NCBI GenBank assembly: GCA_013286425.1
Contig: JABDFS010000033.1
Location: forward strand, 1 to 35,129
Length of the DNA: 35,129 nt
DNA from: Bacteroidota bacterium
Lineage (GTDB): Bacteria > Bacteroidota > Bacteroidia > Chitinophagales > Chitinophagaceae
Reading direction: 5' to 3'
Part shown: positions 19,080-35,129 of the stretch, in pieces
Position numbering within the stretch: the first letter of the stretch is position 1
Layout: each line of letters starts with the position of its first letter
The notes under the pieces: model-generated
What the model saw: the letters and a program-made list of their open reading frames with translations, nothing else
What the model was told of the DNA's origin: nothing
Databases searched by the model: none
Translations under genes and position numbers: made by a program

Positions 19080-19099
19080 CTTTTACAAATGCACTTGTT
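19080..19099 (-). repeat. attC-1 remnant (family D right end)
   Basis: Only the last 20 bp of a family D site remain (CTTTTACAAATGCACTTGTT form), followed by core GTTGGGC. The left part was lost at the junction with the IS110 fragment. It marks the low-coordinate end of the array. Confidence 0.6.
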
Positions 19100-19694
19100 G
19101 GGCGTTCGCCATTGTCTCTTTATAATCTTGCGGATACCATTTATAAAACCAGTTAATGCAGTCAACGCAATTCACCAAGACTGCTTCGGTTGCATAATGT
19201 TTAAACTTGTTTGGTATCCATGCAAACAGAAGTCGGCTTTGCTTTGTCTTTGTCAAATAAAACCATGTGTCAATTGGCGGCATGTCATAAATGTCAACCA
19301 AACCGAATGACTGAACTTCAGATGCTCCATCAATAACTGTACAGTCAATTTGTGATATTAAGATATCACCTTCAAATTTTTCATTTATTGATAAATACTT
19401 TTGAGATTCTTTATAATCAATTTGCTGTTCAAAAAGTCCTTCAATCAGAAACTTATTTTTCCGCTCTGTTGGGTCAACTTGCCAATGAGTTAAAGTGCAT
19501 GTATTCAAGTTAGGTACAATGTCAAAATTGAACTGATGGACTTCAAATGAAAATAATGGCTTTCCGTTTAAAGTTGGGTTATAACTTCTAAATATTTTGG
19601 CTTTGTCACTACAACTTTTGTCAAGTTGCAAGCGACAATATTGTTGTGTCAGTTTTAAATTATGAAAGAATTTATTCTTGTCAATGTTTAGCAT
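19083..19694 (-). CDS. Cassette C1: hypothetical protein
   Basis: A 203-aa soluble protein that I do not recognise. The start is placed at the ATG at 19694 (MLNIDKNKFFHNLKLTQQ) because the longer frame to 19832 reads backwards through the left end of the IS1182 element. There are no signal peptide or membrane segments; several Cys-containing stretches (CRLQLDKSC, VNCVDCINWF) are scattered, not a clear metal site. The stop codon lies inside the attC remnant, so the last residues AQQVHL are encoded by the recombination site. The cassette ends match: GTTGGGCG at 19097 and CGCCCAAC at 19717. It is the oldest-positioned cassette if the array grows from the high-coordinate side. Confidence 0.65.
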   Translation of the reverse strand: MLNIDKNKFFHNLKLTQQYCRLQLDKSCSDKAKIFRSYNPTLNGKPLFSFEVHQFNFDIVPNLNTCTLTHWQVDPTERKNKFLIEGLFEQQIDYKESQKYLSINEKFEGDILISQIDCTVIDGASEVQSFGLVDIYDMPPIDTWFYLTKTKQSRLLFAWIPNKFKHYATEAVLVNCVDCINWFYKWYPQDYKETMANAQQVHL

Positions 19695-19727
19695 AAGTGC
19701 TGTGTCAAATTGGTGACGCCCAACGAG

Positions 19728-21478
19728 AGTTTGTGAAAAAACTAACGTTGTAATCAAATATACACACTCTGTGAATAGCTCAAATGGTGTATAGTTATTG
19801 CTTATAAGAGTTATGCAATTTATCCAGGGCAACGATCGCTATCAAACTTACTTTGCAACATTGAATGATCAGGTGAGTGCAGACAATCCTGTAAGACTTA
19901 TCGATGCATTTATTGACAAGCTTGATTTGCAGCAATTAGGCTTTACAAACACCGTTCATAAAGAACAAGGCCGCCCACCCTATGCACCGGCAGTGCTGTT
20001 AAAGCTTTACCTCTATGGCTACCTCAATAAAATACGCAGTAGCCGTAAACTGGAAAAAGAGTGCAGCCGCAATATAGAATTGCAGTGGTTGTTGCAAAAC
20101 CTTCAGCCCAACTATCACACTATCGCCGATTTCAGAAAATTGCATGCAGCAGCACTGCAATCCATGTTCAGGCTGTATGTGCAATTTTTATCAGAAGCTG
20201 ATTTACTCGGTAAAACAACCATAGCAGTTGATGGCAGTAAGTTCAGGGCTGTTAACAGCAGCAAGCATAATTATAATCAGAAAAAGATAGATAAGCATCT
20301 TCAGCTTATAGAAGATAAAACGGCTAAATATTTACACGAGCTTGATGAGATGGACAGCCAGGAAAAGAGCAGTAGTGATGCAGAAGAACTACAAATAAAA
20401 AAAGAGAAGATAGCAGAAGGTCTTTCCAAATTAAAAGAACGCCGCATTAAATACAACAAGCTGCAGGAACAACTGAATAATACAGATGAAAAACAAATTA
20501 GCACCACTGATGCAGACAGCCGTAGCATCATCATTTCAAGAAATATTGTAGAAGTAGCCTATAACACACAAAATGTAGTTGACGATAAATATAACCTTAT
20601 TGTACATACACAGGCAACCAATACCAACGATGGCAAAGCTTTATATAAAGCCACTGTACAGGCTAAAGCAAACCTGCAGTTGCAGAAAGAAGATGTTATA
20701 TGCGCACTGGCTGATAAAGGCTATCATACCGGTGCAGAACTGCAGCGGTGCCAGCAGGATAGAATGATAACATATGTGGCCTATAGGGAGCAGCCCGCCG
20801 TTAAGCATATCGCCAATGAATTTTTAGCAGAAAGCTTTATCTATGATAAACCAACAGATACATATACCTGTCCTGCCGGTGCGCAATTAACAACGTTGGG
20901 CACATGGCATTATAAAAAAGGAGAAGCCGGAGAAACAAGTTACCGGTTTAAAACATACCGCACTGATACATGTAAAACATGCGCCTTAAAACAACAATGC
21001 ACCAAATTACCCAAACGTATTATACAGCGCAGCGAATACCAGGATGCTATAGAAACGAATAATAATAACATTAAACAAAACACGCAGTATTATAAACGAA
21101 GGCAGGCAATATGCGAGCATCCCTTTGGCAGCATCAAACGGCATTGGGGTTATACACATACCTTATTAAAAGGCCTGCAAAAAGTAAATGGAGAAATGAA
21201 CCTCATAATGTTCTGCTACAACTTTATGCGCACTAAAAACATTCTTGGCTTTGATAAAATGATACAGGCTATTGAAAAATGGACACCAGGCTACAGCAAA
21301 GTAGCCTGCACTATAAAAAAGCGGTTTATCAAAGCCATTTACAGCCAAAATAAGCAACTGATTTTTTTAAGAATATTCCAGGCTTCATTTTTAAAGGCTG
21401 CATAGAAAAGCAGCTAATACACTTATACTCACTTCTACCAACCCGTTTTTGACGCAATAAGGAGTTTTTTCACAGTCT
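19728..21478 (+). mobile_element. IS1182-family insertion sequence splitting attC-2
   Basis: The ends are an imperfect 16-bp inverted repeat, AGTTTGTGAAAAAACT at 19728-19743 and AGTTTTTTCACAGTCT at 21463-21478 (13 of 16 matching). It contains one intact DDE transposase gene. Removing it and one copy of ACG (present at both 19723 and 21480) rebuilds a continuous site CCCAACG-TTCAGG-TATTTGCG, so it inserted at the AAC core of an attC-like site. The exact boundary and duplication length are ambiguous by 1-3 bp. Confidence 0.8.
19813..21405 (+). CDS. IS1182-family transposase
   Basis: A DDE transposase of 530-535 aa with the IS1182 layout. The N-terminal domain has DNPVRLIDAFIDKLDLQQLGF and the GRPPYAPAVLLKLYLYGYLN motif. 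The first catalytic Asp is in TIAVDGSKF (Asp145 numbered from the ATG at 19798), the second in ALADKGYHTG (Asp306), and the Glu in RRQAICEHPFGSIKR (Glu440), with a charged coiled-coil insertion at about 165-230. A Cys cluster (CPAG... CKTCALKQQC) precedes the third catalytic residue. The frame is uninterrupted, so the element may be active. The start at the ATG at 19813 (MQFIQGNDRYQ) matches family N-termini better than 19798. Confidence 0.9.
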   Translation: MQFIQGNDRYQTYFATLNDQVSADNPVRLIDAFIDKLDLQQLGFTNTVHKEQGRPPYAPAVLLKLYLYGYLNKIRSSRKLEKECSRNIELQWLLQNLQPNYHTIADFRKLHAAALQSMFRLYVQFLSEADLLGKTTIAVDGSKFRAVNSSKHNYNQKKIDKHLQLIEDKTAKYLHELDEMDSQEKSSSDAEELQIKKEKIAEGLSKLKERRIKYNKLQEQLNNTDEKQISTTDADSRSIIISRNIVEVAYNTQNVVDDKYNLIVHTQATNTNDGKALYKATVQAKANLQLQKEDVICALADKGYHTGAELQRCQQDRMITYVAYREQPAVKHIANEFLAESFIYDKPTDTYTCPAGAQLTTLGTWHYKKGEAGETSYRFKTYRTDTCKTCALKQQCTKLPKRIIQRSEYQDAIETNNNNIKQNTQYYKRRQAICEHPFGSIKRHWGYTHTLLKGLQKVNGEMNLIMFCYNFMRTKNILGFDKMIQAIEKWTPGYSKVACTIKKRFIKAIYSQNKQLIFLRIFQASFLKAA

Positions 21479-21667
21479 GACGTTCAGGTATTTGCGACGG
21501 CAGGATAATAGCATTCCGTCAAGCTGATACCGAAGCTGATTTTTGTTTGCTGCCGAAGATAATTACAAATGTTCAATAGCGTTGAGTCACGATGATAACT
21601 GAAGCTGAGTAGAATTACTGCTGCTGAAGTGCAGTTAGTCAGCCCTGCTGTTGCAAATACCCATGTT
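21479..21667 (-). repeat. attC-2 (family B), right part; core stub at 19722-19727
   Basis: Arms GTATTTGCGACGGCAGG and (as reverse complement) GTATTTGCAACAGCAGG pair with two G-T wobbles. The right core is GTTGTAC. The site is interrupted by the IS1182 element after AACG; the rejoined length is about 190 bp. Confidence 0.75.
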
Positions 21668-21678
21668 GTACGTAGTAT

Positions 21679-22509
21679 TTAGTCATACTTAAATTCATAA
21701 ACTGTCTTTAGCTTAGTGTCTAAATAATATTCAATTTTAAGTAAGCGTCCACTATTGTCGTAAAAATACTTGTTTACATTATAAAATGGATAATCGGAAT
21801 ATGATTGAAAATACTCTCTCCATTTTTTTTCAATGATTTTCCCTTCATTATTTCTTGTTATAACTGTATCAGTCATTTTCCCATTTTCATAACGAGAAAT
21901 CGTTTCAATATGTCTATTGTTTTTGTCATAGATTAAAGTGTCAGTTCCAACAATGGTATCTGCAACAAAATATTGAACTTTAATTTTTACACTGTTACTG
22001 TAAGTAAAACGATAATATTCTGGAGTATTTAATTTATTAATGATTTTTCTTTCTATTTGATTATTATTTCTATCATATTGGTATTCCTCAACTGGCTTAT
22101 TATCGTAAAGTAATTTACTTAAATTGTTTCCATTGTATTCATAAGTGTAGGTGTATGAGCCTTTATCTCCTCCACCTTCAGGTGATATATAAACGGTTTT
22201 AATTTCTATTGTTGCTTTCATTTTCAACTTCCCGTTATACGATAAATTTACTTGTTGCATTAGTTTACCCCACATATCACCAAAGTAATCTGTATTAGCG
22301 TAGATTTCCTGATAAATCATATTACTATCAGCATTGTATTCTTCATAAGCACATTTAAACCTTTTGCCTTGTTGTCCTTTAGAATTACTGGAACTGTCAT
22401 AACTAATAAAAAATTCAGTAATTGAATACTTCTTATGCTGGGTCATGTCAAAGCATCCGGCAAAAAGCATTATTGCAAAAAGCAGTAGAATTAGATTGCG
22501 AAGGGTCAT
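21679..22509 (-). CDS. Cassette C2: lipoprotein with YD-like repeats
   Basis: A 276-aa predicted lipoprotein. The leader MTLRNLILLLFAIMLFAGC has its lipobox Cys at 19. The mature part contains short repeats of the form (Y)DxNxxxIExxxxY and YDNSGRLLKIEYYLDTKLK, resembling YD/RHS-type beta repeats, but it is too short to be an RHS toxin. The start is the ATG at 22509; the longer frame uses a GTG inside the neighbouring attC. Cassette ends GTTGTACGTA (21665) and TACGTACAAC (22515) are fully complementary. It is probably anchored in the periplasm or outer membrane; function is unknown. Confidence 0.65.
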   Translation of the reverse strand: MTLRNLILLLFAIMLFAGCFDMTQHKKYSITEFFISYDSSSNSKGQQGKRFKCAYEEYNADSNMIYQEIYANTDYFGDMWGKLMQQVNLSYNGKLKMKATIEIKTVYISPEGGGDKGSYTYTYEYNGNNLSKLLYDNKPVEEYQYDRNNNQIERKIINKLNTPEYYRFTYSNSVKIKVQYFVADTIVGTDTLIYDKNNRHIETISRYENGKMTDTVITRNNEGKIIEKKWREYFQSYSDYPFYNVNKYFYDNSGRLLKIEYYLDTKLKTVYEFKYD

Positions 22510-22521
22510 AATATTACGTAC

Positions 22522-22714
22522 AACGTTCACGGCTTGGCGAATAACTGGTATTTGAAATTCGTCCAGCCCGAACCGCAGTTAAATTTATAATTAAAAGTTC
22601 ATTGTTATCGTTGTCGCCAAATTTTTAATGTCCAACCGATTACTGCAGCACAATAGCCAAACAAAAGTTGATGTTGCATTGAGTCGCGCCAGTTTTTTGC
22701 CAAACCCCTTTGTT
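22522..22714 (-). repeat. attC-3 (family A)
   Basis: 193 bp. Plus-strand ends are GTACAAC and GTTGTAC. Stem arms GGCTTGGCGAATAACTGG and CCAGTTTTTTGCCAAACC. The unpaired spacer is about 6/5 nt. Confidence 0.8.
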
Positions 22715-22723
22715 GTACGCATG

Positions 22724-23248
22724 TCAATTTAGCTTCTCAAACTTTTTTTTGTTGTCGTTCCATAGCCATAATTCAGGTTCACAATAGCTACAAGAGTCAT
22801 AATAACCTAAACTGTCTGGTGGATTTATAACCAAAAGCCTGCTATTTTGTTTGAACTTATAGTCAAGTGACGCTGGAGGAATGTCATAAACACGTCCTGT
22901 CTTCAAATCAGTAATTGCACCGTTTAAACAATCTGTTCCGCAACCCCACATCGCAAGATTGTAGTGCCCTGCAAAGTCAGTCCCGAAATTATCAATTGAC
23001 CATCTGATGGTGGAACGAAAGCGTTTTGCAGTTTTGCTGCTCGAGTAATTTATTTTAGCGCGTTTGCCAGAAAATGTATCAACTATATACTTACCGTAAT
23101 CAATTGTATATGAAAATTTTTCCTTACCAACTGTGTCAACTTTTGCAATTTGCTGTTTGCTTGGAACAGAAGCTAAATTATTATTTGTTCCTTTATTGTG
23201 ACAAGAGAGAAATGTCCAAAATGCCATTATGAAAAATAGTCTATTCAC
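22724..23248 (-). CDS. Cassette C3: lipoprotein, unknown
   Basis: A 174-aa predicted lipoprotein starting at the GTG at 23248 (MNRLFFIMAFWTFLSC, lipobox Cys16); the internal ATG at 23227 would leave too short a leader. The mature domain has a conserved-looking core DFAGHYNLAMWGCGTDCLNG then AITDLKTGRVYDIP, a pattern I have seen in small periplasmic proteins of unknown function. Two Cys in WGCGTDC and two in CSYC could form disulfides. Cassette ends GTTGTACGCA/TGCGTACAAC match over 10 nt. No function is claimed. Confidence 0.65.
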   Translation of the reverse strand: MNRLFFIMAFWTFLSCHNKGTNNNLASVPSKQQIAKVDTVGKEKFSYTIDYGKYIVDTFSGKRAKINYSSSKTAKRFRSTIRWSIDNFGTDFAGHYNLAMWGCGTDCLNGAITDLKTGRVYDIPPASLDYKFKQNSRLLVINPPDSLGYYDSCSYCEPELWLWNDNKKKFEKLN

Positions 23249-23262
23249 GAGGGATTGCGTAC

Positions 23263-23452
23263 AACGAAGGGTATTTGCGATGGCAGGGCATTCTTGTGTT
23301 CCGTCACGCCGATACCGAAGCTGATTTATTTGTTTTGCCGAAGATAACTACTAATGCTCAACAGCGTACTGTCAGCCGATAACCGGAGCTGAACAGAATT
23401 ACTGTTGCCGAAGTGCGTTCCGTCGCCCCTTGCTATTGCAAATACTTTTGTT
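23263..23452 (-). repeat. attC-4 (family B)
   Basis: 190 bp. Ends GTACAAC and GTTAGCA. Stem GTATTTGCGATGGCAGGGC against reverse-complement GTATTTGCAATAGCAAGG; the right arm has one extra T on the plus strand. Confidence 0.8.
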
Positions 23453-23465
23453 AGCAGCAGCCCTT

Positions 23466-24431
23466 TTATGTTGTAATAGTTGTAATCTCATATTTCTTAT
23501 CATTTAATATTGTTTCCGTTTTATTTACTTTAGGCTCTGGATTAGGTTCATTAAAATTTGCATAATAAATAATGCCATAATAAGTATTTGTCGCTTGCAT
23601 ATAGATTAATACTTGATTTATTGTATTCTGCATATGAGAACCAATTGCTCTCATTCTCTTAAATTCTAGTATCACTTGTTCATTGTCAATTTCGATTAAG
23701 AAATCTGGTCTAATATCTCTCCCTCCAATATTAAAATGTGGTTCTCGTTGAGTGTTTACAGATTTGCTTACAGATGCAATATAAGCGTGGAATAATCCTA
23801 TAATTTCAACTTCTCTTATATCTTTTGTGTTATTAAAAATCTGTTGACTATTTTGTCTAGAAAACTCTATTATAATATCAACAAGTTTGTCAACTGGAGT
23901 TTTGTTTGAAGACAAAGCAATGGTTTTAATTTTTTCAGCATTTTCTTTTTCTTCAGCCAATTTTTTTTGCTGCGTCTGATAAGCAATTTTTTCTTGAATT
24001 TGTTTTAGTAAAAGATGAACAAAACTAGATACAGATGTTAATGCAATAAAAGCCTCATTTTCGTCAAAGAATAATTTGAAATCATGAGTGGATTTATTTC
24101 TCCATTCTTGTCGATAATTTTTAAACAGTTGTAAAACTCTTTCTCTAAATATATTATTTGTTTCAAAAAATTTTTCAATGTCATTTGGAGTTTTTCTGAA
24201 TACTTCTTCTTCGGATTTGTCTGCAAGCACTTTATATGATTCCTTTAATGCTCCTTCATAAGCCTGATTACTTCTGTAAATAACATCATTGAAGAAGTTT
24301 GTGTCAGACTTACCTTGCTTATAATAGAATTCAGCTCTGTCTATATGAGTAAAGATTGAGTCCAAATAGTTTGAACTATCAACTTTTTTTATCGAATTAA
24401 TTTGCTGTTCTATTTCTTTAAGTATGTCCAT
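23466..24431 (-). CDS. Cassette C4: HEPN-like plus PD-(D/E)XK-like nuclease candidate
   Basis: A 321-aa soluble protein. The N-terminal half (about 1-150) is all-helical and contains RNKSTHD at 111-117, fitting the Rx4-6H signature of HEPN ribonuclease domains. A Lys/Glu-rich coiled coil spans 145-172. The C-terminal half has RPDFLIEIDNEQVILEFKR (Asp243, Glu256, Lys258), then INQVLIYMQ (Gln273, Tyr277) and GIIYYA. This is the D-(E)xK plus QxxxY pattern of the PD-(D/E)XK nuclease superfamily. Such a combination is typical of anti-phage or abortive-infection factors, so a defence role is likely but inferred. It starts at the ATG at 24431. Cassette ends GTTAGCAGC/GCGGCTAAC match with one mismatch. 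Confidence 0.65.
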   Translation of the reverse strand: MDILKEIEQQINSIKKVDSSNYLDSIFTHIDRAEFYYKQGKSDTNFFNDVIYRSNQAYEGALKESYKVLADKSEEEVFRKTPNDIEKFFETNNIFRERVLQLFKNYRQEWRNKSTHDFKLFFDENEAFIALTSVSSFVHLLLKQIQEKIAYQTQQKKLAEEKENAEKIKTIALSSNKTPVDKLVDIIIEFSRQNSQQIFNNTKDIREVEIIGLFHAYIASVSKSVNTQREPHFNIGGRDIRPDFLIEIDNEQVILEFKRMRAIGSHMQNTINQVLIYMQATNTYYGIIYYANFNEPNPEPKVNKTETILNDKKYEITTITT

Positions 24432-24457: not shown

Positions 24458-24650
24458 AACGTTCACGGCTTGGCGAAGAACTGGTATTTAAAATTCGTCC
24501 AGCCCTAACTGCAGTTAAATTTATAATTAAAAGTTCATTGTTGTTGATGTCGCCAAATGTATAATGTCCAGCCGATTACCACAGCTTAATAGCCAAACAA
24601 AAGTTGATGTTGCATTACGTCAGCCAGTTTTTTGCCAAACCACTTTGTTG
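24458..24650 (-). repeat. attC-5 (family A)
   Basis: 193 bp. Ends GGCTAAC and GTTGTGC. Stem arms GGCTTGGCGAAGAACTGG and CCAGTTTTTTGCCAAACC. Confidence 0.8.
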
Positions 24651-24665: not shown

Positions 24666-25172
24666 TCAAAGTGTAATTGGCATTGTCGTGAAGCTAATAC
24701 CTTGTCTTTCTTCGAAAGTTAATATTTGACTGTCAGTAAGAATTGGCTTTTGTCGCACTATTTGGTCAAAGCCTGATGATTTAAAATTTATGTTGCCTTC
24801 TTGCAAATCAATTGACCATTCGTAAATCCATTTGTTTTTTTCTTGTTCTACTTTGTCAATAAGAAGAAGGTCAGCAATTTCTAACATGTCAGTTGCCCCT
24901 CCACGTCTGTCAATGTTTATTGTCAGCGCAAATGTGTCCTTAAATATTAACGTGCAAGGAGAAATCCAGAAAGAAAATATTCGCTTTGGTGGAATTGGAT
25001 TTACCCACTTAAAAATATAGTCAATGTCAAATATTAAATTAGTTGTGCCAATGTCGTCAAGTGGGGAAAAAATTAAGCCATAAATATTGCAGTCATGCCA
25101 ACCCATTTTTTCATAATCATCTTGTGTCCAAATGCTTTTGTCAAGAATGAATATATCTTCGGATCGTGTCAA
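24666..25172 (-). CDS. Cassette C5: hypothetical protein, TTG start
   Basis: A 168-aa soluble protein. No ATG exists upstream of the conserved-looking opening DIFILDKSIWTQDDYEKMGW, and the frame is closed by a TGA about 50 bp before it, so the TTG at 25172 is the probable start. The middle contains FDIDYIFKWVNPIPPKRIF and FWISPCTLIFKDT, which looks like a compact beta-rich fold. No catalytic motif is evident. Cassette ends GTTGTGCGT/ACGCACAAC match. Function is unknown. Confidence 0.6.
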   Translation of the reverse strand: MTRSEDIFILDKSIWTQDDYEKMGWHDCNIYGLIFSPLDDIGTTNLIFDIDYIFKWVNPIPPKRIFSFWISPCTLIFKDTFALTINIDRRGGATDMLEIADLLLIDKVEQEKNKWIYEWSIDLQEGNINFKSSGFDQIVRQKPILTDSQILTFEERQGISFTTMPITL

Positions 25173-25232: not shown

Positions 25233-25423
25233 AACGAATCGGTATTTGCGATGGCAGGGCATTCTGTGTTCCGTCACGCCGGTGCCGAAGCTGATTTGTT
25301 TGTTTTGCCGAAGATAATTACAAATGCTCAACAGCGAACTGTCAGCCGATAACTGAAGATGAACAGAATTACTGCTGCCGAAGTACTTTCCGTCGCCCCC
25401 TGCTATTTGCAAATACTTTTGTT
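25233..25423 (-). repeat. attC-6 (family B)
   Basis: 191 bp. Ends GCACAAC and GTTAGCG. Stem GGTATTTGCGATGGCAGGGC against CCCCCTGCTATTTGCAAATA; internal module shared with attC-2 and attC-4. Confidence 0.8.
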
Positions 25424-26464: not shown

Positions 26465-26654
26465 AACGGTAGAGCTTGGCGAAGAACTGGTATTTGAAAT
26501 TCGTCCAGCCCGAACCGCTGCTAAATTTATTATTAAAAGTTCATTGTTATTGATGTTGCCAAATTTATAACGTCAAGCTGATAACTGCTGCTGATAGCCG
26601 AACAAAAGTTGATGTTGCGTTGAGTCGCGCCAGTTTTTTGCCAAACCCATTGTT
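26465..26654 (-). repeat. attC-7 (family A)
   Basis: 190 bp. Ends CGCTAAC and GTTACCT. Stem AGCTTGGCGAAGAACTGG with CCAGTTTTTTGCCAAACC. Confidence 0.8.
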
Positions 26655-28091: not shown

Positions 28092-28283
28092 AACGTTCAC
28101 GGCTTGGCGAAGAACTGGTATTTGAAATTCGTCCAGCCCGAACCGCTGCTAAATTTATAATTAAAAGTTCATTGTAATTGATGTCGCCAAATTTATAAAG
28201 TCAAGCCAATAACTACAGCACAATAGCCAAAACAAAAGTTGAGATTGCATTCGTCGCGCCAGTTTTTTGCCAAACCTTTTGTT
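28092..28283 (-). repeat. attC-9 (family A)
   Basis: 192 bp. Ends GCACAAC and GTTGGCG. Stem GGCTTGGCGAAGAACTGG with CCAGTTTTTTGCCAAACC. Confidence 0.8.
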
Positions 28284-28294: not shown

Positions 28295-28906
28295 TTATTT
28301 GGGCTTTGTCTTTTTCTTATTATCATCTTCAAAAATAGAATTTCCATTTTGTAAAATTTCTTGTTCAAGATGGTAATAAGTTTGTCTTACGTTGTAATAA
28401 TGTTGCTTCCATTCTTGCCGAGGAATATACTGGGATGTGTCAGAAAGGGAATCTAAAAATTCTAATGGATTTAAAGGATTTAAACTATCATTTTCTAACG
28501 CTTGATTTAGTTTTATATAAATTACTTGAACATTGTTTTTTGCATATTCCTTTACTATTCCCATAGCAATTGCATGAAAGGAAGAGTATAAGGCAGTGTT
28601 CGAATTTTCATTGTATAAACTTGCTAAAAACCTTGCTCTTATCTCGCCCAAAAATAACCAGTACATCGAACTGTCTTTGTATCCTTTTGAATACAGCATC
28701 ATACCTGCCATCATTAAAATGTCCGGTTCGATAGTGAATATACTATCTGCAATATATTTATAAGCCATTTCTCTTTTTGTAGTGTCTTGTGAAGACAAAA
28801 AAAAGTAAGCTGTAAATTTATTAATTGTAGTCGTGTCAATCTGGGCACAACAATTTTGAACAAACGAAAAAGTAAAAAATATTGAAAGTATAATTAATTT
28901 TTTCAA
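28295..28906 (-). CDS. Cassette C9: secreted protein, unknown, TTG start
   Basis: A 203-aa exported protein. The start is set at the TTG at 28906, which gives a textbook leader (MKKLIILSIFFTFSFVQNCC then AQ). The longer frame to 29050 is translation of the family C attC and is rejected. The mature part is mainly helical (INKFTAYFFLSSQDTTKREM, MMLYSKGYKDSSMYWLFLGE), resembling helical-repeat proteins without a clear TPR consensus. The C-terminus is charged (DDNKKKTKPK). Cassette ends GTTGGCGGTA/TACCGCCAAC are perfectly complementary. Function is unknown. Confidence 0.6.
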   Translation of the reverse strand: MKKLIILSIFFTFSFVQNCCAQIDTTTINKFTAYFFLSSQDTTKREMAYKYIADSIFTIEPDILMMAGMMLYSKGYKDSSMYWLFLGEIRARFLASLYNENSNTALYSSFHAIAMGIVKEYAKNNVQVIYIKLNQALENDSLNPLNPLEFLDSLSDTSQYIPRQEWKQHYYNVRQTYYHLEQEILQNGNSIFEDDNKKKTKPK

Positions 28907-28943
28907 ACTATTAGAGTTGGATGTGTCACATAAAATTACCGCC

Positions 28944-29131
28944 AACGTTAAAGCGTTTGCGATGGGCTGGCGATAGCGATTGGTCAGCCTGCTACAAATG
29001 CTTAATTGAAAAACTAAAGTTGAAAATATGAAACATAAGCTAAATAGCAAAGGTCAAGCTGGAACAACTGCTGATGCCTGTAAATTGCTGAGAACTTAAT
29101 GTCGAGCCAGTCTATTGCAAACGCCGGTGTT
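28944..29131 (-). repeat. attC-10 (family C)
   Basis: 188 bp. Ends CGCCAAC and GTTAGGC. Stem GCGTTTGCGATGGGCTGGC against reverse-complement GCGTTTGCAATAGACTGGC. Confidence 0.8.
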
Positions 29132-29144: not shown

Positions 29145-29459
29145 TCACCCTTTTAAAACATTCGGGTTCTGCAAAGTCGTTTCATTGAACTTTTGTGTCC
29201 ATGATGCAAGATCAACATTTGTTTCTTCTTTTACATCATCAAAGTAAATCCAACAATTGCAGTCTGCAGATAACTGTCTTAATTCTTCAATGTCGTGCTG
29301 TAAAATTTTGTCGTGTCCATACTTGCGTTCTCCATTACTTATCGTGTCCCATAAAACATATTCTAAATTCCTCAACCAGCCCGATGAGTAACATCTTTCA
29401 GACAAGCCACTCATAAAATCTGCAAGTTTTCTCTGCTCAGATGTCAAGTCGTTAAGCAT
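29145..29459 (-). CDS. Cassette C10: small soluble protein, unknown
   Basis: A 104-aa helical protein (LTSEQRKLADFMSGLSERCY then SSGWLRNLEYVLWDTI) ending in CNCWIYFDDVKEETNVDLAS. There is no leader and no membrane segment. The pattern of an N-terminal SEQRKLADFM helix followed by ISNGERKYG resembles small proteins of unknown role that I associate with mobile DNA, but no family name can be given. The ATG at 29459 lies about 105 bp from the upstream attC. Cassette ends GTTAGGCGCA/TGCGCCTAAC match over 10 nt, and here the core fits the strict GTTRRRY/RYYYAAC consensus. Confidence 0.6.
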   Translation of the reverse strand: MLNDLTSEQRKLADFMSGLSERCYSSGWLRNLEYVLWDTISNGERKYGHDKILQHDIEELRQLSADCNCWIYFDDVKEETNVDLASWTQKFNETTLQNPNVLKG

Positions 29460-29564: not shown

Positions 29565-29750
29565 AACGGCTCGGTATTTATGCAGGCAGGGCAATAGAGC
29601 CGTATCAGCCGATAACCGAAGCCGAGTAAAGATACAAAGATGAATATTACTAATGCTCAATAGCGTTCCGTCACGATGGGACTGATGCTGAATAGCTATA
29701 CTAAAGCCGAAATGCGTAATGTCAGACCTGCTTGCATAAATACTTTTGTT
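29565..29750 (-). repeat. attC-11 (family B variant with compensatory stem changes)
   Basis: 186 bp. Ends GCCTAAC and GTTAGCG. Stem GTATTTATGCAGGCAGG against reverse-complement GTATTTATGCAAGCAGG: the TTTGCGAT of other family B sites is TTTATGCA on both arms. Confidence 0.8.
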
Positions 29751-30102
29751 AGCGGCTGGCTTTTTTCTTTGTTTGGTCTGGCAGTTGCTCTTTATATTTT
29801 TCTACAAATTCTTTTGCGTCTTTCAAATTGTCTGGATATGGAACATAACCCTCTTTGCTTATTATAATTCCATTTTTCTTCTCAACGATTTTATAAATAT
29901 GCTGATAACGAAAACCATTGTCAACTAAATATTTTACTGTCTCCCAAAGTTTGGTGTCAGTCTTTTTAGGTGGCTTAAATAAATGAGATAGGAGTGTCAT
30001 AGGTTTACCGCATACCGAACAAGAATATTCTCTTTCCGAGCCAAAGTCAATTGCTCTATTTAATGATTTTCTACAGTCTATGCAAACAGCTTTGTATCCC
30101 AT
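29749..30102 (-). CDS. Cassette C11, second gene: zinc-ribbon protein
   Basis: A 117-aa protein with an N-terminal zinc ribbon (Cys7-x2-Cys10 in AVCIDCRKS and Cys28-x2-Cys31 in YSCSVCGKP), followed by MTLLSHLFKPPKKTD, VKYLVDNGFRYQHIY, and a C-terminal helix DAKEFVEKYKEQ. Small proteins of this form recur in Bacteroidota; their role is unknown. The TAA stop overlaps the AAC core of its attC. It begins 1 bp after the stop of the preceding gene, so the two are translationally coupled within one cassette. Confidence 0.7.
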   Translation of the reverse strand: MGYKAVCIDCRKSLNRAIDFGSEREYSCSVCGKPMTLLSHLFKPPKKTDTKLWETVKYLVDNGFRYQHIYKIVEKKNGIIISKEGYVPYPDNLKDAKEFVEKYKEQLPDQTKKKASR

Positions 30103-30103
30103 T

Positions 30104-30466
30104 TTAGTTTGTCTTTTTCAGATGCGGAGTAACGTTTCTCCAAATGTCAGCATAGTCGGCATAAAAAGAAGCAAGTGGAGTTGTATGTCCTTGCATTGAT
30201 ACATTTGCAACTTCTAAATTTAAAAACAGATTTTGAATAATTTCTATTTCCTCTTCTCTCAATTCAACTAAATATTTTGATGTTGCTTCGTCGTCTTTTT
30301 TGTTGTGTTTGATAGGTTTTGGCAATTCATTAGTCTGTAGAATTGATTGAATTTTTTCAGCTAATTCTAAATGTCCTACTTTAATCAATTCGTTATAAGT
30401 TGTAATTAAAGTCTGGTGGTATAAAATGTTCTCTTCTATCATTTCGTCAAACTGCAGGGTGGTCAA
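30104..30466 (-). CDS. Cassette C11, first gene: small helical protein
   Basis: A 120-aa, mainly helical acidic protein (DEMIEENILYHQTLITTYNE, then LVELREEEIEIIQNLFLNLE), with no leader or membrane segment and no family that I recognise. The start could be the TTG at 30466 or the ATG at 30442; the ATG is about 40 bp from the upstream attC. Directly followed after 1 bp by the zinc-ribbon gene, it makes this the only clear two-gene cassette in the array. Co-inheritance suggests a complex or an effector-partner pair, which is inferred from layout only. Confidence 0.6.
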   Translation of the reverse strand: MTTLQFDEMIEENILYHQTLITTYNELIKVGHLELAEKIQSILQTNELPKPIKHNKKDDEATSKYLVELREEEIEIIQNLFLNLEVANVSMQGHTTPLASFYADYADIWRNVTPHLKKTN

Positions 30467-30480: not shown

Positions 30481-30671
30481 AACGTTAAAGCGTTTGCGAT
30501 GGGCTGGCAATAGCGAATTGTCAGCTTGGTACAAATGCTTAATTGAAAAACTGAAGTTGAAAATATAAAACATAAGCTAAATAGCAAAAGTCAAGCTGGA
30601 CCCGCAGCTGATGCTTGCAAAAATGGTTGATGATTTTACGTCGAGCCAGCCTATTTGCAAACGCACTTGTT
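30481..30671 (-). repeat. attC-12 (family C)
   Basis: 191 bp. Ends CGCTAAC and GTTACAT. Stem GCGTTTGCGATGGGCTGGC against GCGTTTGCAAATAGGCTGGC. Confidence 0.8.
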
Positions 30672-31299
30672 ACATGCCGTTTTTCTTCTTCGTCAACATG
30701 ATTGAATAATTTAAAGACCAATGTGGCGTTATGTCATTCTTGTTTTCAGAAGTGTCTGGCAAATAGTTAAGTTTAAAATTCTCAATGAAATTTTTGTGTG
30801 TCAATTCAAATGTCTGTTTGCCTTTAAAGTCTGGCGGAAGACAAGGAAAATATTTGTCGTGCAAATAGCTCATTATTTCCATGCCAGATGTGTCAACCAA
30901 ATCTCCGTCTATTGACCAGCCACCAACAAACTTGAAAATGTGCCCATTACTGTCTGCTGAAAAATAAAGTACGCCAACAATTGAACCTGTTGAAAGTTCT
31001 GCTGAATAAAAATCGTCTAATGAAAGATAATCTTTGATTGCTGGAAAATACTTTTCATATTTTCCATTAGGGTCGTACCTGAACGAAAATGAAGTGTCAA
31101 ATTGTTTTATGTCTTGCCCAACTACAAAAAGCGGTTTGCCTTTATAATGCAAACAAGAAGGTTCATAAATAGCTGTTGTATCAAAACCTTCTTCTAAAAA
31201 TGCTGAGTCAACCAAACTAAGTTTTATCTTGATAGCCTTGTTGTTTGTGTTTGTACAAGCAACAGTCAAAATGCAAATTACAGTTAGTAGCGTCTTCAT
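30670..31299 (-). CDS. Cassette C12: lipoprotein, unknown
   Basis: A 209-aa predicted lipoprotein (MKTLLTVICILTVAC, lipobox Cys15). The mature domain contains LVDSAFLEEGFDTTAIYEPS, KPLFVVGQDIKQFDTSFSF and FYSAELSTGSIVGVLYFSAD, a mixed alpha/beta pattern without a named family. The TAA stop lies in the core GTTACAT of its attC. The ATG at 31299 is only about 14 bp from the upstream attC, so any promoter would have to be inside the recombination site. Cassette ends GTTACATGCC/GGCATATAAC match with one mismatch. Confidence 0.65.
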   Translation of the reverse strand: MKTLLTVICILTVACTNTNNKAIKIKLSLVDSAFLEEGFDTTAIYEPSCLHYKGKPLFVVGQDIKQFDTSFSFRYDPNGKYEKYFPAIKDYLSLDDFYSAELSTGSIVGVLYFSADSNGHIFKFVGGWSIDGDLVDTSGMEIMSYLHDKYFPCLPPDFKGKQTFELTHKNFIENFKLNYLPDTSENKNDITPHWSLNYSIMLTKKKNGM

Positions 31300-31312
31300 T
31301 AAAATGGCATAT

Positions 31313-31503
31313 AACGTTCAGGGCTTGGCGAAGAACTGGTATTAGTATTCCCGTCACCCTGAACCGAAGTTAAATTTATATTCAAAAGTTCATTGTTATT
31401 GATGTCGCCAATTTATAACGTCGAGTTGATAACAACTGTTGAGTAGCCAAACAAAAGTTGATGCTGCGAATTGTCAGCCAGTTTTTTGCCAAACCGCCTT
31501 GTT
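31313..31503 (-). repeat. attC-13 (family A)
   Basis: 191 bp. Ends ATATAAC and GTTAGCC. Stem GGCTTGGCGAAGAACTGG with CCAGTTTTTTGCCAAACC. Confidence 0.8.
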
Positions 31504-31514
31504 AGCCGCATTTG

Positions 31515-31994
31515 TCAGTCCAACAAGTGACTGATGTCTTGGGCACAATAAATGTAAGAAAGCTGATTGTCTTCTTGGTCTCCACTCATGCTTGCTCCAG
31601 AGCACAGGCTTAATTTGAGGTCAATAAAGAGAGCCTCACCTTCGTCAATTATTTTTTGCATAGAAGAAACTTTGTCGAGTGTATCAACAGCATCCCAAAA
31701 TTGCATCTCAAAGTTTATAGTTTTGTCAAAAATATTCAGCTCGATACCACTACGGATTTCCAATTCTGAAAATTGATCATTGCTGTCATAGATCAAGAAT
31801 AGAAATACTGGTTGACCTTTCAATTGATTATAAATGTCTCGTCGTGAAACTGTGCCAGCAAACTCTTGGTCGCTGATTTCATATTCACTTTGAAGCGTTT
31901 CTCGAACTTTTTTACGCGTCGTTCCCCAGGGAATAAAAGTTTTCCCGTAAACAATTCCGTTGTCCGGCTTATATTCTAATGAAATAGTCATCAT
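31515..31994 (-). CDS. Cassette C13: soluble hypothetical protein
   Basis: A 159-aa acidic protein (MMTISLEYKPDNGIVYGKTF) starting at the ATG at 31994; the longer frame to 32057 is attC sequence. It contains IPWGTTRKKVRETLQSEYEI, LKGQPVFLFLIYDSNDQFSE and LEIRSGIELNIFDKTINFEM, an alternating beta/turn pattern reminiscent of small single-domain proteins with a WG-T-R-x2-V opening helix. There are no leader or membrane segments and no active-site motif. Cassette ends GTTAGCCGCA/TGCGGCTAAC are perfectly complementary over 10 nt. Confidence 0.6.
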   Translation of the reverse strand: MMTISLEYKPDNGIVYGKTFIPWGTTRKKVRETLQSEYEISDQEFAGTVSRRDIYNQLKGQPVFLFLIYDSNDQFSELEIRSGIELNIFDKTINFEMQFWDAVDTLDKVSSMQKIIDEGEALFIDLKLSLCSGASMSGDQEDNQLSYIYCAQDISHLLD

Positions 31995-32003
31995 ATTGCG
32001 GCT

Positions 32004-32194
32004 AACGTGAACGCATTTGTGAAGGCATGGCAATAGCGATTGGTCAGCTTGGTACAAATGCTTAATTGAAAAACTGATGTTGAAGATAATTACAAATGTT
32101 CAATAGCGAAATGTCGGCTTGAATAAAAGGTGATAAGAATTACTTCTGCACAAATGCTGCTGGTCAAGCCATGCCTTTTACAAATGCCACTGTT
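32004..32194 (-). repeat. attC-14 (family D, mosaic of C and B)
   Basis: 191 bp. Ends GGCTAAC and GTTGGTT. Stem GCATTTGTGAAGGCATGGC with reverse-complement GCATTTGTAAAAGGCATGGC. The first internal half matches family C and the second (32082-32108) is identical to family B at 21555-21581. Confidence 0.8.
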
Positions 32195-32678
32195 GGTTGC
32201 AGTTTTTGTCGTTTGCAATTACAACAGGTTCAATTTTATCACCACTTATCTTAATTAACCAACTTATCATTGGTGCAAATGTTGGACTGCCATATTGGAA
32301 AAACTTTTTGTAAATCTTTTCGTCATTTACATAGTTAAGTGTTTTTGCTTCGTCCCAATTTAAAGTAAATGTGTCTGAATTAAATCGAGTCCATTTCCCG
32401 GTAGTTAAGTCAAAGCCAACTTCGTAAACAGAATAGTAGATGTAAGTTGAGTCGTCGTTGAGTATTAAGTATGTTGAATTATACATTCCTTGATTTTCAA
32501 AAACCTTGAAAGCCTTTGCAATGTCATAAGTCTTTGTATTTGTCAAAGTAAAGGTTCTTGAATTGAATATTTCATGCTGATATTTTTCAACGTCGGATAA
32601 AAGACTGTCAATATTAGTTTGAGAATTTGAATAAGTACTTGTTAGGATGAGCGACAATAAAAAGATTACCCGCTTCAT
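32178..32678 (-). CDS. Cassette C14: secreted protein, unknown
   Basis: A 166-aa exported protein (MKRVIFLLSLILTSTYSNSQ leader). The start is the ATG at 32678, not the upstream ATG at 32735, because it gives a correct signal peptide. The mature part is beta-rich (TYLILNDDSTYIYYSVYEVG, TGKWTRFNSDTFTLNW), like small lipocalin-type folds. The stop lies 15 bp inside its attC, so the C-terminal NQQWHL is site-encoded and resembles the AQQVHL tail of C1. Cassette ends GTTGGTTGCA/TGCAACCAAC are perfectly complementary. Confidence 0.65.
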   Translation of the reverse strand: MKRVIFLLSLILTSTYSNSQTNIDSLLSDVEKYQHEIFNSRTFTLTNTKTYDIAKAFKVFENQGMYNSTYLILNDDSTYIYYSVYEVGFDLTTGKWTRFNSDTFTLNWDEAKTLNYVNDEKIYKKFFQYGSPTFAPMISWLIKISGDKIEPVVIANDKNCNQQWHL

Positions 32679-32814
32679 TAATAATTCATTTATAGTCCAA
32701 TTATTAGCTTGATTTAGAATAATTGATTTTTTCAAAACCTTGTTGTCAATGTGTTGTCTATAAACGTCGACTTGAAAAATTAATTGCTTTGATCATTATG
32801 TCAAAATTGCAACC

Positions 32815-33002
32815 AACGTTGAAGCATTTGTGAAGGCATGGCAATAATGATTTGTCAGCCGGTGCAAATGCTTAATTGAAAAACTGATATTCAAGATAAT
32901 TACAAATGTTGAATTACATAAGGTCGGCTTGAACAAAACATGATAAGAATTACTGCTGCAGATTGTTGCTGGTCAAGCCATGCTTTTACAAATGCCACTG
33001 TT
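32815..33002 (-). repeat. attC-15 (family D)
   Basis: 188 bp. Ends AACCAAC and GTTGTGC. Stem GCATTTGTGAAGGCATGGC with reverse-complement GCATTTGTAAAAGCATGGC, two wobble positions. Confidence 0.8.
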
Positions 33003-33012
33003 GTGCGCATTT

Positions 33013-33537
33013 TTATCCTTTTTTAGGTAACCAGATTGGAGATGGATAAGCAAATATTTTTACAATAAGAGTGTCATTAGAATTAGGTAGTCTGATATGA
33101 TGGTCACCCAAATAATCAAAATTTACCATCGTGTCCATTCCAGATTTTAGTCCCTTCATAAATCTAAAAAGTAAATCTTGAGTTGAGTCCATTTTTGGCA
33201 GAAATGTAAGAGAACTTTCGAAGGCAATTTCTTTATTACAATGAGATTTTATTATGATAGTTAAGTGGTCAATTTTAACAGAGTCCACATGAACTCTAAT
33301 ACTGTCAATGTAAATATTAGAAAGTAAGTCATAAAAATTATATGCATACTTGTAACGAACACTATCCTGTTTATTAAAATCTTTTTCTTGCTGCACATCC
33401 GCTTTAAACTTGTCAACTAAATATTGAATCTGGCGTTGAGCTTTTGAATATGAAATTTTTGATTCAGAATTTTTTGTCGATTGTGAACATGAAAAAAGCA
33501 GCGAAAAAATAAATATTGAAATAAAGCTTTTAGTCAT
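33013..33537 (-). CDS. Cassette C15: lipoprotein, unknown
   Basis: A 174-aa predicted lipoprotein (MTKSFISIFIFSLLFSC, lipobox Cys17) starting at the ATG at 33537; residues before it in the longer frame come from the attC. A helical region with YSKAQRQIQYLVDKFKADVQ is followed by beta-strands IDSIRVHVDSVKIDHLTIII and FLPKMDSTQDLLFRFMKGLK. There is no recognised family. Cassette ends GTTGTGCGCA/TGCGCACAAC are perfectly complementary. Confidence 0.65.
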   Translation of the reverse strand: MTKSFISIFIFSLLFSCSQSTKNSESKISYSKAQRQIQYLVDKFKADVQQEKDFNKQDSVRYKYAYNFYDLLSNIYIDSIRVHVDSVKIDHLTIIIKSHCNKEIAFESSLTFLPKMDSTQDLLFRFMKGLKSGMDTMVNFDYLGDHHIRLPNSNDTLIVKIFAYPSPIWLPKKG

Positions 33538-33562
33538 TTTGGTGTATGCAAAATTTGCGCAC

Positions 33563-33754
33563 AACGTTAGGGCTTGGCCGAAGAACTGGTATTTGAAATT
33601 CGTCCAGCCCGAACCGCTGCTAAATTTATAATTAAAAGTACATTGCCATTGATGTCGCCAAATTTATAACGTCCAGCCGATTACTGAAGCTGATTAGCAA
33701 AACAAGAGCTAATGCTGTGTAACGTCAGCCAGTTTTTTGCCAAACCGCCTTGTT
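33563..33754 (-). repeat. attC-16 (family A)
   Basis: 192 bp. Ends GCACAAC and GTTGGCT. Stem GGCTTGGCCGAAGAACTGG (one extra C in the left arm) with CCAGTTTTTTGCCAAACC. Confidence 0.8.
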
Positions 33755-33773
33755 GGCTGCTGGTTTATCTTCT

Positions 33774-34481
33774 TTAAGTTGTTCCCCAGGCATACCAATG
33801 GTCACTAATTTTTTCCCATCTAATTATGTCACCGCAGTCATTTGTTTCAGGATTTTCTCCAGTCTCAGAATAAGCTATTCCATAACAATTGTCAAGCATG
33901 CCATCCATAGTAAAAGAGATTGTTCCATCATCAAGGGTAATGAAACTTTCAAATCCAGTGTCAATTAGCTTTTTTCTAAATAATTCATAGTATGCTTTGT
34001 CAATGTTATTTTTTTTAAGAACATCATCTAAAAAATATTTCTTGCCAAACCCACTATCTGTTGTATCAACATCATTAATGTTTGCTTCTATCGAGATATT
34101 ATTTACGGATTTCCAAAATCTAAGGCCGTCACTCATTTCTTTAATCTTTTTGTAGCTTTTTATATCAACCACAAGTTCATTTAGCAAAACTTCTTTTGAT
34201 TTATAATAAACTAAGTCAGCGGTATTTCGTTGAATATTATAAGTAAGAAAATAACAAATTATTGCTAAGCCTGCGACAATTAAATAGTACTTCTTTTTTG
34301 ATTTATGAGATTCAATGTTAGTTAAAGTAATTCCTGAAACAATTAGTAAAATAAGAGCAAGTAAAAATATCAGAAGTAAAATAAAAATGTTCGTTGTCAG
34401 TATAAAAAATATTGTTCCAATGTAAGGAGTCAAAATGCTAAGAATAAAGATCAACAAATTGTTTATGAATTTCCGAGTCAT
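33774..34481 (-). CDS. Cassette C16: three-helix membrane protein with soluble C-terminal domain
   Basis: A 235-aa protein starting at the ATG at 34481 (MTRKFINNLLIFILSILTPY). Three membrane segments lie at about 7-25, 29-52 and 66-84, the last two separated by a basic loop (ESHKSKKKYY). A soluble domain of about 150 residues follows with DGLRFWKSVNNISIEANIND, KAYYELFRKKLIDTGFESF and a Cys-containing end (DNCYGIAYSE, NDCGDIIRWE). The frame upstream to 34634 is attC translation. Cassette ends GTTGGCTGCT/AGCAGCCAAC are perfectly complementary. Function is unknown; the soluble domain may face either side of the membrane. Confidence 0.6.
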   Translation of the reverse strand: MTRKFINNLLIFILSILTPYIGTIFFILTTNIFILLLIFLLALILLIVSGITLTNIESHKSKKKYYLIVAGLAIICYFLTYNIQRNTADLVYYKSKEVLLNELVVDIKSYKKIKEMSDGLRFWKSVNNISIEANINDVDTTDSGFGKKYFLDDVLKKNNIDKAYYELFRKKLIDTGFESFITLDDGTISFTMDGMLDNCYGIAYSETGENPETNDCGDIIRWEKISDHWYAWGTT

Positions 34482-34521
34482 TAGAATCGTTTTGAATTTA
34501 GAGTCATTAAAAATAGCAGCC

Positions 34522-34708
34522 AACGTTAAAGCGTTTGCGATGGGCTGGCAATAGCGAACTGTCAGCTTGGTACAAATGCTTAACCGAAAAACTAAACTTG
34601 AAATTATAAAACATAAGCTAAATAGAACGGTCAAGCTGGAACAACTGCTAATGCTTGCAAGTTGCTAAGAATTTAATGTCGAGCCAGCCTATTGCAAACG
34701 CACTTGTT
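34522..34708 (-). repeat. attC-17 (family C)
   Basis: 187 bp. Ends AGCCAAC and GTTGGGC. Stem GCGTTTGCGATGGGCTGGC against GCGTTTGCAATAGGCTGGC. Confidence 0.8.
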
Positions 34709-35129
34709 GGGCGAAGTTGTATTTGTCTAAAAGTCGTTTGATATTATTTGAATTATCAACACAGAAAAGTCCAACTAAAATCATTTCACGGTTTGCAAAA
34801 ACTTGTCTATTGCCAATCGAATATTTACTTACACCTTGTCTGTCTATGCTTTGATAATGAACATTTTTAGAACTATCCTTTAGTTGAAAGAAATAGTCAT
34901 TGTAAATAATGGTATCTTTTAATCTCTGGCCATCAACTGTTGTGTCAATCGAATAAACTGAATTTATTTCAATGATTATTGAAACATTTTCAGAAGGTAT
35001 TTTAGCTGTCCAAACTTTGATTAGGTGTTGGTCTTCTAAAATTATTTGTTTTTCATATTTAGAAAGGTCAGTTAAGCTTAAAGTTTCTATGGTCTTAAAA
35101 TCATTAAATACTTGCTTTATCTTTTCATT
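34689..35129 (-). CDS. Cassette C17: hypothetical protein, 5' end outside window
   Basis: An open minus frame of 146 codons runs from the window edge to a TAG at 34689-34691 inside attC-17. It includes LSLTDLSKYEKQIILEDQHL, PSENVSIIIEINSVYSIDTT, then ANREMILVGLFCVDNSNNIK and RLLDKYNFAQQVRLQ. The composition is that of a normal soluble alpha/beta protein. The start lies beyond 35129. The last residues (AQQVRLQ) are encoded by the recombination site, as in C1 and C14. No family is recognised. Confidence 0.6.
   Translation of the reverse strand, partial: NEKIKQVFNDFKTIETLSLTDLSKYEKQIILEDQHLIKVWTAKIPSENVSIIIEINSVYSIDTTVDGQRLKDTIIYNDYFFQLKDSSKNVHYQSIDRQGVSKYSIGNRQVFANREMILVGLFCVDNSNNIKRLLDKYNFAQQVRLQ

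Follow-up and report, generated by a model that had tools for sequence, protein, structure and literature searches.

A candidate integron-like cassette array in Bacteroidota with attC-like sites predicted to fold and an XerA-like recombinase linked to such sites in relatives

Introduction

Integrons are recognised by the integrase IntI together with attC sites, the extrahelical bases of which are read by the I2 domain of the enzyme. The canonical consensus of the attC R box is RYYYAAC / GTTRRRY, and in Proteobacteria the integrase gene is usually divergent from the cassettes, with known exceptions. XerA is a lone Xer recombinase of archaea.

The IntI-type integron has been defined by an integrase with an additional domain of about 30 residues (PMC7784347), and in canonical attC sites the bottom strand, once folded, exposes two extrahelical bases (PMC3053210). 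In a subgroup of tyrosine recombinases termed 'Integron-like', this insertion was called essential for integron function, and the sections of that paper drawn on here tie no cassette array to the members devoid of it (PMC8138268). According to PMC4792948, CTXphi is integrated by host XerCD as a folded single strand; the stem of this fold imitates duplex DNA and is free of extrahelical bases, and the Xer enzyme involved lacks I2. The same paper names CTXphi as the only similar reaction and describes the joint origin of I2 and extrahelical bases as a chicken-and-egg paradox.

Here we describe a probable cassette array in 35,129 nucleotides of a contig from a Bacteroidota genome (the window, meaning this whole stretch), together with its relatives in other genomes. 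Like the sedentary chromosomal integrons of the IntI type, the system has a one-strand array of mostly single-gene cassettes with AAC...GTT cores, a predicted G^TT exchange point, an unpaired spacer followed by a stem, a favoured bottom strand and, close to the recombinase gene, an attI-like point; both also include clusters of sites that lack a recombinase, which among IntI-type integrons are called CALIN. It differs from them in a recombinase without the IntI-specific domain and usually with an extra N-terminal domain, in sites of about 190 or 125 nt that lack extrahelical bases and have the core GTTR instead of GTTRRRY, and in a recombinase gene that mostly faces the array and shows no SOS box. 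Whereas CTXphi is a phage relying on host enzymes, the platform described here joins many gene cassettes to an attI-like point and to a recombinase gene dedicated to them.

Results

Seventeen elements starting with AAC were found on the minus strand, from position 34708 down to 19080, in agreement with the 17 minus-strand units parted by AAC...GTT repeats that a sequence-only reading of this DNA had proposed. Fifteen of them are intact AAC...GTT repeats of 186-193 nt, namely site 1 (34522..34708, 187 nt), site 2 (33563..33754, 192 nt), site 3 (32815..33002, 188 nt), site 4 (32004..32194, 191 nt), site 5 (31313..31503, 191 nt), site 6 (30481..30671, 191 nt), site 7 (29565..29750, 186 nt), site 8 (28944..29131, 188 nt), site 9 (28092..28283, 192 nt), site 10 (27175..27364, 190 nt), site 11 (26465..26654, 190 nt), site 12 (25233..25423, 191 nt), site 13 (24458..24649, 192 nt), site 14 (23263..23452, 190 nt) and site 15 (22522..22714, 193 nt). 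Site 16 runs from 21667 to about 21480 (21479..21667) and its right core is split by an insertion sequence, the GTT half being left at 19722-19724; site 17, at the distal array end, is truncated to its left 20 nt (19080..19099). The transposase gene of the inserted element, which we take to be of the IS1182 type, lies on the plus strand (19798..21405; DUF772 and DDE_Tnp_1_6).

These repeats delimit 16 complete cassettes plus one cut by the window's end, and all of the cassette genes are on the minus strand. A family match was given by cassette 9 (27376..28044), with Nmad2 (nucleotide modification associated domain 2) at E 7.9e-55, and the C-terminal part of the cassette 13 product (23466..24431) resembled PD-(D/E)XK nucleases (PDDEXK_3, 22.9 bits against a cut-off of 22). 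Two matches stayed under the cut-off: a weak putAbiC-like one (E 0.0014) in the incomplete cassette 0 (34710..35129) and a weak DUF6236 one in cassette 11 (25422..26438). No family was above cut-off for cassette 1 (33774..34520, the part after GTT of a mechanical ORF at 33774-34634), cassette 2 (33013..33564, scanned as 33013-33561) and cassette 3 (32178..32735). No Pfam match was obtained for cassettes 4 (31515..32057, scanned as 31515-32003), 5 (30670..31299), 6 (29749..30466), 7 (29145..29459), 8 (28295..29050), 10 (26673..27146), 12 (24666..25172), 14 (22724..23248), 15 (21679..22530) and 16 (19083..19721). With the ORFs as assigned, the proposed layout of one gene per unit was seen in 15 of the 16 complete cassettes and failed in cassette 6 (30480-29751), which holds two ORFs (30104-30466 and 29749-30102). 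Stop codons had been noted next to the repeats, and for the 16 ORFs measured they fell from 19 nt before the site to 17 nt inside it.

When the window was scanned for structure, requiring only AAC...GTT and arms pairing on the bottom strand, exactly the 15 intact sites were returned on the minus strand of the array. A further 14 matches, mostly weaker, appeared on its opposite strand because the sites are near-palindromes, and the remaining 19 kb gave two matches on one strand and none on the other.

The cassette borders carried a signature of their own. The 7 nt after the GTT of one repeat were complementary to the 7 nt before the AAC of the next at 105/112 positions over the 16 cassettes, as against 52/112 across the same repeat, and none of 200,000 permutations reached this value (maximum 88). 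In other genomes, 553/679 positions were complementary over 97 consecutive site pairs from 25 loci (permutation maximum 343), with 76 of the 97 pairs matching at 6 or 7 of 7. Judged from the sequence, this head-to-tail complementarity is the mark that exchange at G^TT leaves on cassettes, as known from IntI-type integrons. The integron-like architecture with AAC/GTT cores that had been suggested was borne out.

Signs of unit-wise mobility were found in relatives. A 678-nt unit of gene plus site was duplicated exactly, with GTT borders, between cassette borders, and two genomes shared one cassette at 80% identity along the entire body. The sharing comparison comprised 213 cassette entries, in which both strands of the near-palindromic sites are counted. 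The longest ORF lay on the array strand in 88/94 cassettes and on the opposite strand in one, while five had no ORF of 50 aa. The sequence-only reading had named, as the outcome that would speak against it, a fixed block of repeats and genes on which no recombinase acts. The relatives looked different: when the window was compared with 12 of their stretches, the sites alone aligned and the genes differed, cassettes were duplicated and shared singly, and a recombinase gene lay ahead of the sites. An immobile block of genes that are each followed by a structured 3' element, whether RNA or a repeat family, is refuted in the main by the complementarity, which follows the cassette and not the repeat, and its chance is negligible. 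Genes all on one strand with sites beside stops would suit it, but a unit was duplicated with cassette borders, genes vary among genomes while sites align, and Rfam at gathering score gave no family match in the window.

To describe the site structure, 59/89 sites from loci of other genomes and 8/15 window sites were aligned; one of these 67 (L115) is probably no true site and was kept in the counts. The 18-bp stem was 93.6% paired against 36-47% in slid versions, a percentage that is inflated because the 59 locus sites came from a scan requiring pairing arms on the bottom strand. Double-sided changes numbered 307 against 111 in shuffles, and they touched 12/18 stem pairs against 11.3 in shuffles, showing no excess in that respect. 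The 15 window sites taken alone gave a covariation score of 0.240 compared with 0.080 when shuffled, a value reached by 0/500 shuffles. The arms covary over 18 bp while the sequence drifts, which is a sign of selection on pairing. By alignment, the stem arms were of equal length in 57/67 sites, with the left one longer in 4 and the right one in 6. An unpaired spacer and a stem had been anticipated, as had a site type peculiar to this array in a Bacteroidota genome, and both were recovered.

The sites nevertheless fall outside the definition of canonical attC under which they had first been placed. GTTRRRY was present in 1/15 window sites and 10/146 locus sites and RYYYAAC in 3/17 and 11/146, respectively, and by alignment the 67 sites lack the pair of extrahelical bases expected on a folded bottom strand. 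What holds instead is a core of GTTR (144/161 sites), and most sites are either about 190 or about 125 nt long. One stem position held a nearly invariant G.T wobble in 62/67 sites, and another held C.A in 34/67. Computed on the arms only, the bottom strand paired better in 13/15 window sites and, among 72 sites found by profile, in 59 (the top strand did so in 6, and 7 were ties), the same folding preference as in IntI-type integrons. When one site was folded as DNA over its full length, neither strand outperformed its shuffles, and so only the arms are supported as structure.

These data bear on an integron-like system working on double-stranded sites only, in which the long sites would be ordinary duplex Xer-type sites and folding would be irrelevant. 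The result for the whole site, and an XerA-like enzyme (below) without the IntI domain for folded attC, would fit such a system, yet arms that covary while the sequence drifts, a bottom strand favoured in both site sets and a nearly invariant wobble of no evident use in duplex DNA make it improbable, although it is the strongest of the alternatives.

In other genomes, 80 loci were picked by their recombinase, with more upstream than downstream DNA scanned. At these loci, 120 sites followed the recombinase gene in the same orientation and only one lay elsewhere, and in a structure-only scan at -18 kcal/mol the density was 0.388 sites per kb on the downstream side, compared with 0.010 and 0.013 on the upstream side. 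The gene mostly points towards the array and is not divergent from it; the exceptions were G017, with a site on the other side and the other strand, and L044, a recombinase fragment with a site on the opposite strand. Profile-found sites were present at 34 of the 79 loci having downstream sequence and at none of the other 45. Among the site-less loci the contig ends soon in many, and sites of the 125-nt type occur in some. At L123 both the profile and the structure scan covered 4.9 kb and yielded no site.

The residues R248, H340, R343 and Y375 (L041 numbering) were invariant in 17/17 aligned rows, identifying a tyrosine recombinase. A search for a recombinase with the IntI-specific domain beside the array had been proposed; the linked enzyme of relatives proved to be without it, with a gap in 16/16 recombinases where the true IntI L001 has about 39 residues, and four of four recombinases scored 165-187 bits with TIGR02249 (cut-off 265). 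The closest family by NCBIfam profile, PDB sequence search and fold (5hxy, 4a8e) was XerA, and NF040815 gave 195.9, 188.7, 197.4 and 226.8 bits for the four, one of which is above the cut-off of 220. Unlike XerA, the present gene heads cassette arrays and its product usually carries an extra N-terminal domain. A tree of 23 array-locus recombinases, 6 distant ones, 21 IntI and 10 host Xer placed the 23 in one clade (100/99) apart from IntI and the ten host Xer in a separate clade (100/100). The distant recombinases of a Bacteroidota-wide draw, some of them with sites, were left out of this tree. It warns of long branches meeting, so that the position of the clade beside IntI should be taken as tentative.

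A standard integron, whose canonical IntI is simply missing from the window and in which the XerA-like gene is a bystander, was already disfavoured by the missing R-box consensus, extrahelical bases and linked IntI. A true IntI does occur in the same order (G052, 428 bits), but TIGR02249 was above its cut-off in only 1 of 59 genomes, one without such sites, and we regard this explanation as very unlikely.

Behind the recombinase gene of relatives, an attI-like point was recognised by a G^TT head complementary to the tail of the first site in 37/42 loci (expected 0.07 per locus). L083 was excluded from this count because its first site is >4 kb away (38/43 with it). Three of the 37 rows, which resemble right arms of a missed site, were dropped from the motif; of the 34 rows kept, 33 have C at -13, and 33 have T at -7. 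The assignment of this point beside the gene is by sequence only, and in the window it is absent from view. SOS boxes were not enriched at the recombinase gene (1/80 vs 1/77).

Sites also occur away from the enzyme. Over 59 genomes, the window's own included, they were found in 18/26 with a recombinase match and in 15/33 without one; in G011, 6/34 sites were in the array by the recombinase, and G027 had 26 sites and no match. Cassette movement by host XerC/XerD with no dedicated enzyme, as in Xer-exploiting elements, could account for G027 and for the AT-rich attI-like motif, but it is a still more remote prospect than a missing IntI, since a dedicated clade apart from host Xer adjoins the arrays and 29.5 kb around ten host Xer genes (small flanks) contained no site. 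The window's own genome, an assembly 64% complete, had no match to the recombinase nor to PF00589, an absence that says little because the Xer genes of the host itself went unmatched as well; this genome probably has or had such a recombinase.

Discussion

Taken as a whole, we put the probability at roughly 80% that this is a cassette array with attC-like sites predicted to fold, into which the XerA-like recombinase of relatives likely inserts cassettes and from which it likely excises them. This recombinase probably acts on the attC-like sites, and its substrate would be the folded bottom strand. In the proposed mechanism, the enzyme would insert circular cassettes at the attI-like site behind its own gene, and would excise them again, the bottom strand being folded and the exchange taking place at G^TT. 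The working order would be the recombinase gene, the attI-like site and the newest cassette first, with older cassettes pushed downstream. The recombinase would handle the folded arms much as if they were an Xer core site in duplex form and would do so with no I2 domain such as IntI uses, and the nearly invariant G.T wobble, in place of extrahelical bases, presumably marks the strand.

The best reading of these data is a second integron type, an I2-free form missing from models of integron origin, and no report of such an I2-free cassette system was found in searches of an open-access collection, preprints aside. With rather less assurance than the array itself, we lean towards a phylum-wide second kind of integron in Bacteroidota, where an Xer-like recombinase would capture single-gene cassettes via long bottom-strand hairpins marked by G.T, in most cases reading the hairpin through an N-terminal domain of its own and using neither I2 nor extrahelical bases. 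This kind would either have survived from an I2-free ancestor of integrons or have arrived at cassette capture independently. If true, the question of how I2 and extrahelical bases arose could be tested on a platform that lacks both and yet has cassettes, foldable sites and an attI-like point, and a large pool of cassettes may be escaping searches that rely on IntI and canonical attC.

As judged from sequence matches, relatives of the system occur across Bacteroidota. Recombinase relatives at E <= 1e-40 were present in 68 of the 198 Bacteroidota genomes drawn, and 20 of these places were checked for sites, which were found in 13.

Sites and cassettes of the array

Seventeen elements were counted on the minus strand between 34708 and 19080 of the window, each of them starting with AAC and, where whole, ending with GTT; the seventeen minus-strand units that the sequence-only reading had seen between such repeats were borne out. 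Fifteen of the elements were intact, with a length of 186-193 nt, and exactly these 15 were recovered on the minus strand when the scan relied on AAC, GTT and the pairing of the bottom-strand arms alone. Site 16 was found to be interrupted inside its GTT core by an element (about 19726-21479) with a transposase that we take to be of the IS1182 type; CGT flanks this element on both sides, resembling a duplication. The last element (site 17) is truncated and adjoins the remnant of an IS110-family transposase (18673-19032; Transposase_20, E 9e-17). Some IS110-family elements use attC sites as their target. Sixteen cassettes are complete, with bodies of 433-1041 nt. Cassette 9 (27376-28044) encodes an Nmad2 protein, a name that links it to nucleotide modification, and no family match was obtained for most other cassette genes of the window.

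An integron cassette has complementary ends, since strands are exchanged within the core and only the circular form contains an intact site. When the 7 nt after GTT were tested for complementarity to the 7 nt that precede the following AAC, 105 of 112 positions matched over the 16 cassettes of the window, against 52 of 112 for the two outer flanks of the same repeat; this sum was reached by none of 200,000 permutations (maximum 88). In other genomes, 553 of 679 such positions matched among 97 consecutive pairs from 25 loci (permutation maximum 343), and 76 of these pairs matched at 6 or 7 positions, the remaining 21 being likely due to missed or false sites. The complementarity within cassettes therefore suggests that the array was assembled unit by unit.

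Structure of the sites

To an 18-bp stem, preceded by a spacer of mostly 6 and 4 nt, 67 bottom-strand sites could be aligned. In this stem 93.6% of the cells were paired; for the 59 sites taken from the structural scan this percentage is to some extent circular, whereas the window and profile counts are free of such circularity. Cells changed on both sides numbered 307 vs 111 in shuffles, and the covariation score was 0.633 vs 0.171 for shuffled and at most 0.098 for slid alignments; the number of stem pairs with a double-sided change (12 of 18) was not above shuffles. For the 15 window sites alone, which had been found by sequence, the score was 0.240 vs 0.080. Pairing was better on the bottom strand in 13 of these 15 sites, as it was in 59 of the 72 that the sequence profile had detected. 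The stem arms were equally long in 57 of the 67 sites, so that a net extrahelical base is generally absent. One stem position was G.T in 62/67 sites and never G-C; another was C.A in 34/67.

The recombinase ahead of the arrays

The window's own genome, which is 64% complete, gave no hit to PF00589 and none to the recombinase described here. In relatives, a tyrosine recombinase gene of 395-403 aa was found to precede such sites in the same direction, namely in G011 (a single contig), G034 and the Parafilimonas terrae locus L095; the last is the same contig as G004, a genome placed by the tool in the genus of the window's genome. A scan of named genomes with a segment of the recombinase gave at least 569 confirmed stretches; the best 80, whose titles include many Chitinophagaceae plus other Bacteroidota, carried 120 sites downstream and co-stranded vs 1 elsewhere. 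A profile match was present in 34 of the 79 loci with downstream sequence, and in 28 of 40 where this reached at least 2 kb. The structure-only scan gave 0.388 sites/kb downstream vs 0.010 and 0.013 upstream; the density of 0.201 on the opposite strand downstream arises because the sites are near-palindromic. In 25 loci the same scan also picked up 41 shorter sites, of about 125 nt, which form a second size class.

One oppositely oriented site each was seen in G017 and L044; in G017 (contig C28, 541-2183) the site and the recombinase gene are divergent as in classical integrons, the site being upstream and on the opposite strand. G011 contains 34 sites at E <= 0.01 (contig C1), of which just 6 stand in the array behind the recombinase and the rest are dispersed, one of them adjoining a second, shorter recombinase copy. 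G027, a 99% complete genome, has 26 sites in several clusters, yet no recombinase match; arrays can outlast the recombinase or exist without it.

An attI-like point, G^TT with the next 7 nt fitting the tail of the first site, was found in 37 of 42 loci in the interval from the recombinase stop to the first cassette; tails from other loci gave 0.07 per locus. It lay 52-324 bp past the stop in 30 of the 37. The motif before GTT, for which 34 were kept, resembles GCRTAWATTTAYGW, with C at -13 and T at -7 in 33/34 each and looser remaining positions.

Relation to IntI

A tyrosine recombinase with the domain specific to IntI (I2) had been what the sequence-only reading proposed to look for; a tyrosine recombinase does head the arrays in relatives, but the domain, about 39 residues in the true IntI of L001 (from genome G052), is replaced by a gap in all 16 aligned recombinases. 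Four recombinases tested with the integron integrase model scored 165-187 bits (cut-off 265), their best model being XerA, and the AlphaFold2 model of the Ilyomonas recombinase (mean pLDDT 81.5) was nearest to XerA, then to IntI. In the tree, 23 recombinases from array loci formed one clade (100/99), IntI another (100/99) and host XerC/D a third (100/100); the first two fall on one side of the Xer branch, a placement to be read with long-branch caution. At the N-terminus, 20/20 aligned recombinases of the array clade carried an additional domain of about 60 residues (beta-beta-alpha-beta-beta-alpha). In these 20 it shows a WSxTxxxWYxP-like motif (e.g. L058, 9734-9922), along with weak hints of HARP, XPB and MotA folds.

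In whatever parts sequence can reveal, the array is integron-like; two linked definitions of an integron, the IntI domain and extrahelical bases, failed. The I2 helix contacts an extrahelical base, which ties both features together (PMC3053210), and their origin has been called a chicken-and-egg paradox (PMC4792948). Co-adaptation would predict their joint absence. The IntI insertion is incompletely conserved within the integron-like subgroup (PMC8138268); I2-less IntI relatives were thus observed earlier, with no arrays tied to them in the accessible part of that paper. The folded arms may be handled by the recombinase like a duplex Xer core, in the manner of CTXphi and host XerCD. A complete Bacteroidota integron has been reported in Salinibacter ruber (PMC9024848), and integron carriers include the phylum or group (PMC8618304, PMC2426708); in the accessible text of the open-access literature, without preprints, no published account of this cassette system was found.

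Distribution and probable cassette mobility

Recombinase relatives (E <= 1e-40) occurred in 68 of 198 Bacteroidota genomes drawn. Structural sites lay downstream in 13 of 20 such places examined, which together gave 39 sites vs 7 in reversed sequence. Head-tail matches of 6-7 of 7 were observed in 15 of 26 consecutive pairs; these 15 come from 8 places, some of which fall outside the window's class.

When the window array was compared by blastn with 12 stretches from relatives, the sites aligned and the genes did not. One cassette is common to G034 and a Ferruginibacter MAG (80% over the whole body); the similarity extends into both flanking sites, and farther out the sites and the recombinase gene alone align. 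In Agriterribacter humi (L054), a 490-nt body with its 188-nt site occurs in two identical, non-adjacent copies. At the left border identity ends at the core, 5 nt being shared, and at the right border it spans the site plus 10 nt, which are part of a related copy's head. One cassette family occurs four times in this locus (7509-12882), with two identical copies and two that are 82-86% alike, which looks like repeated copying.
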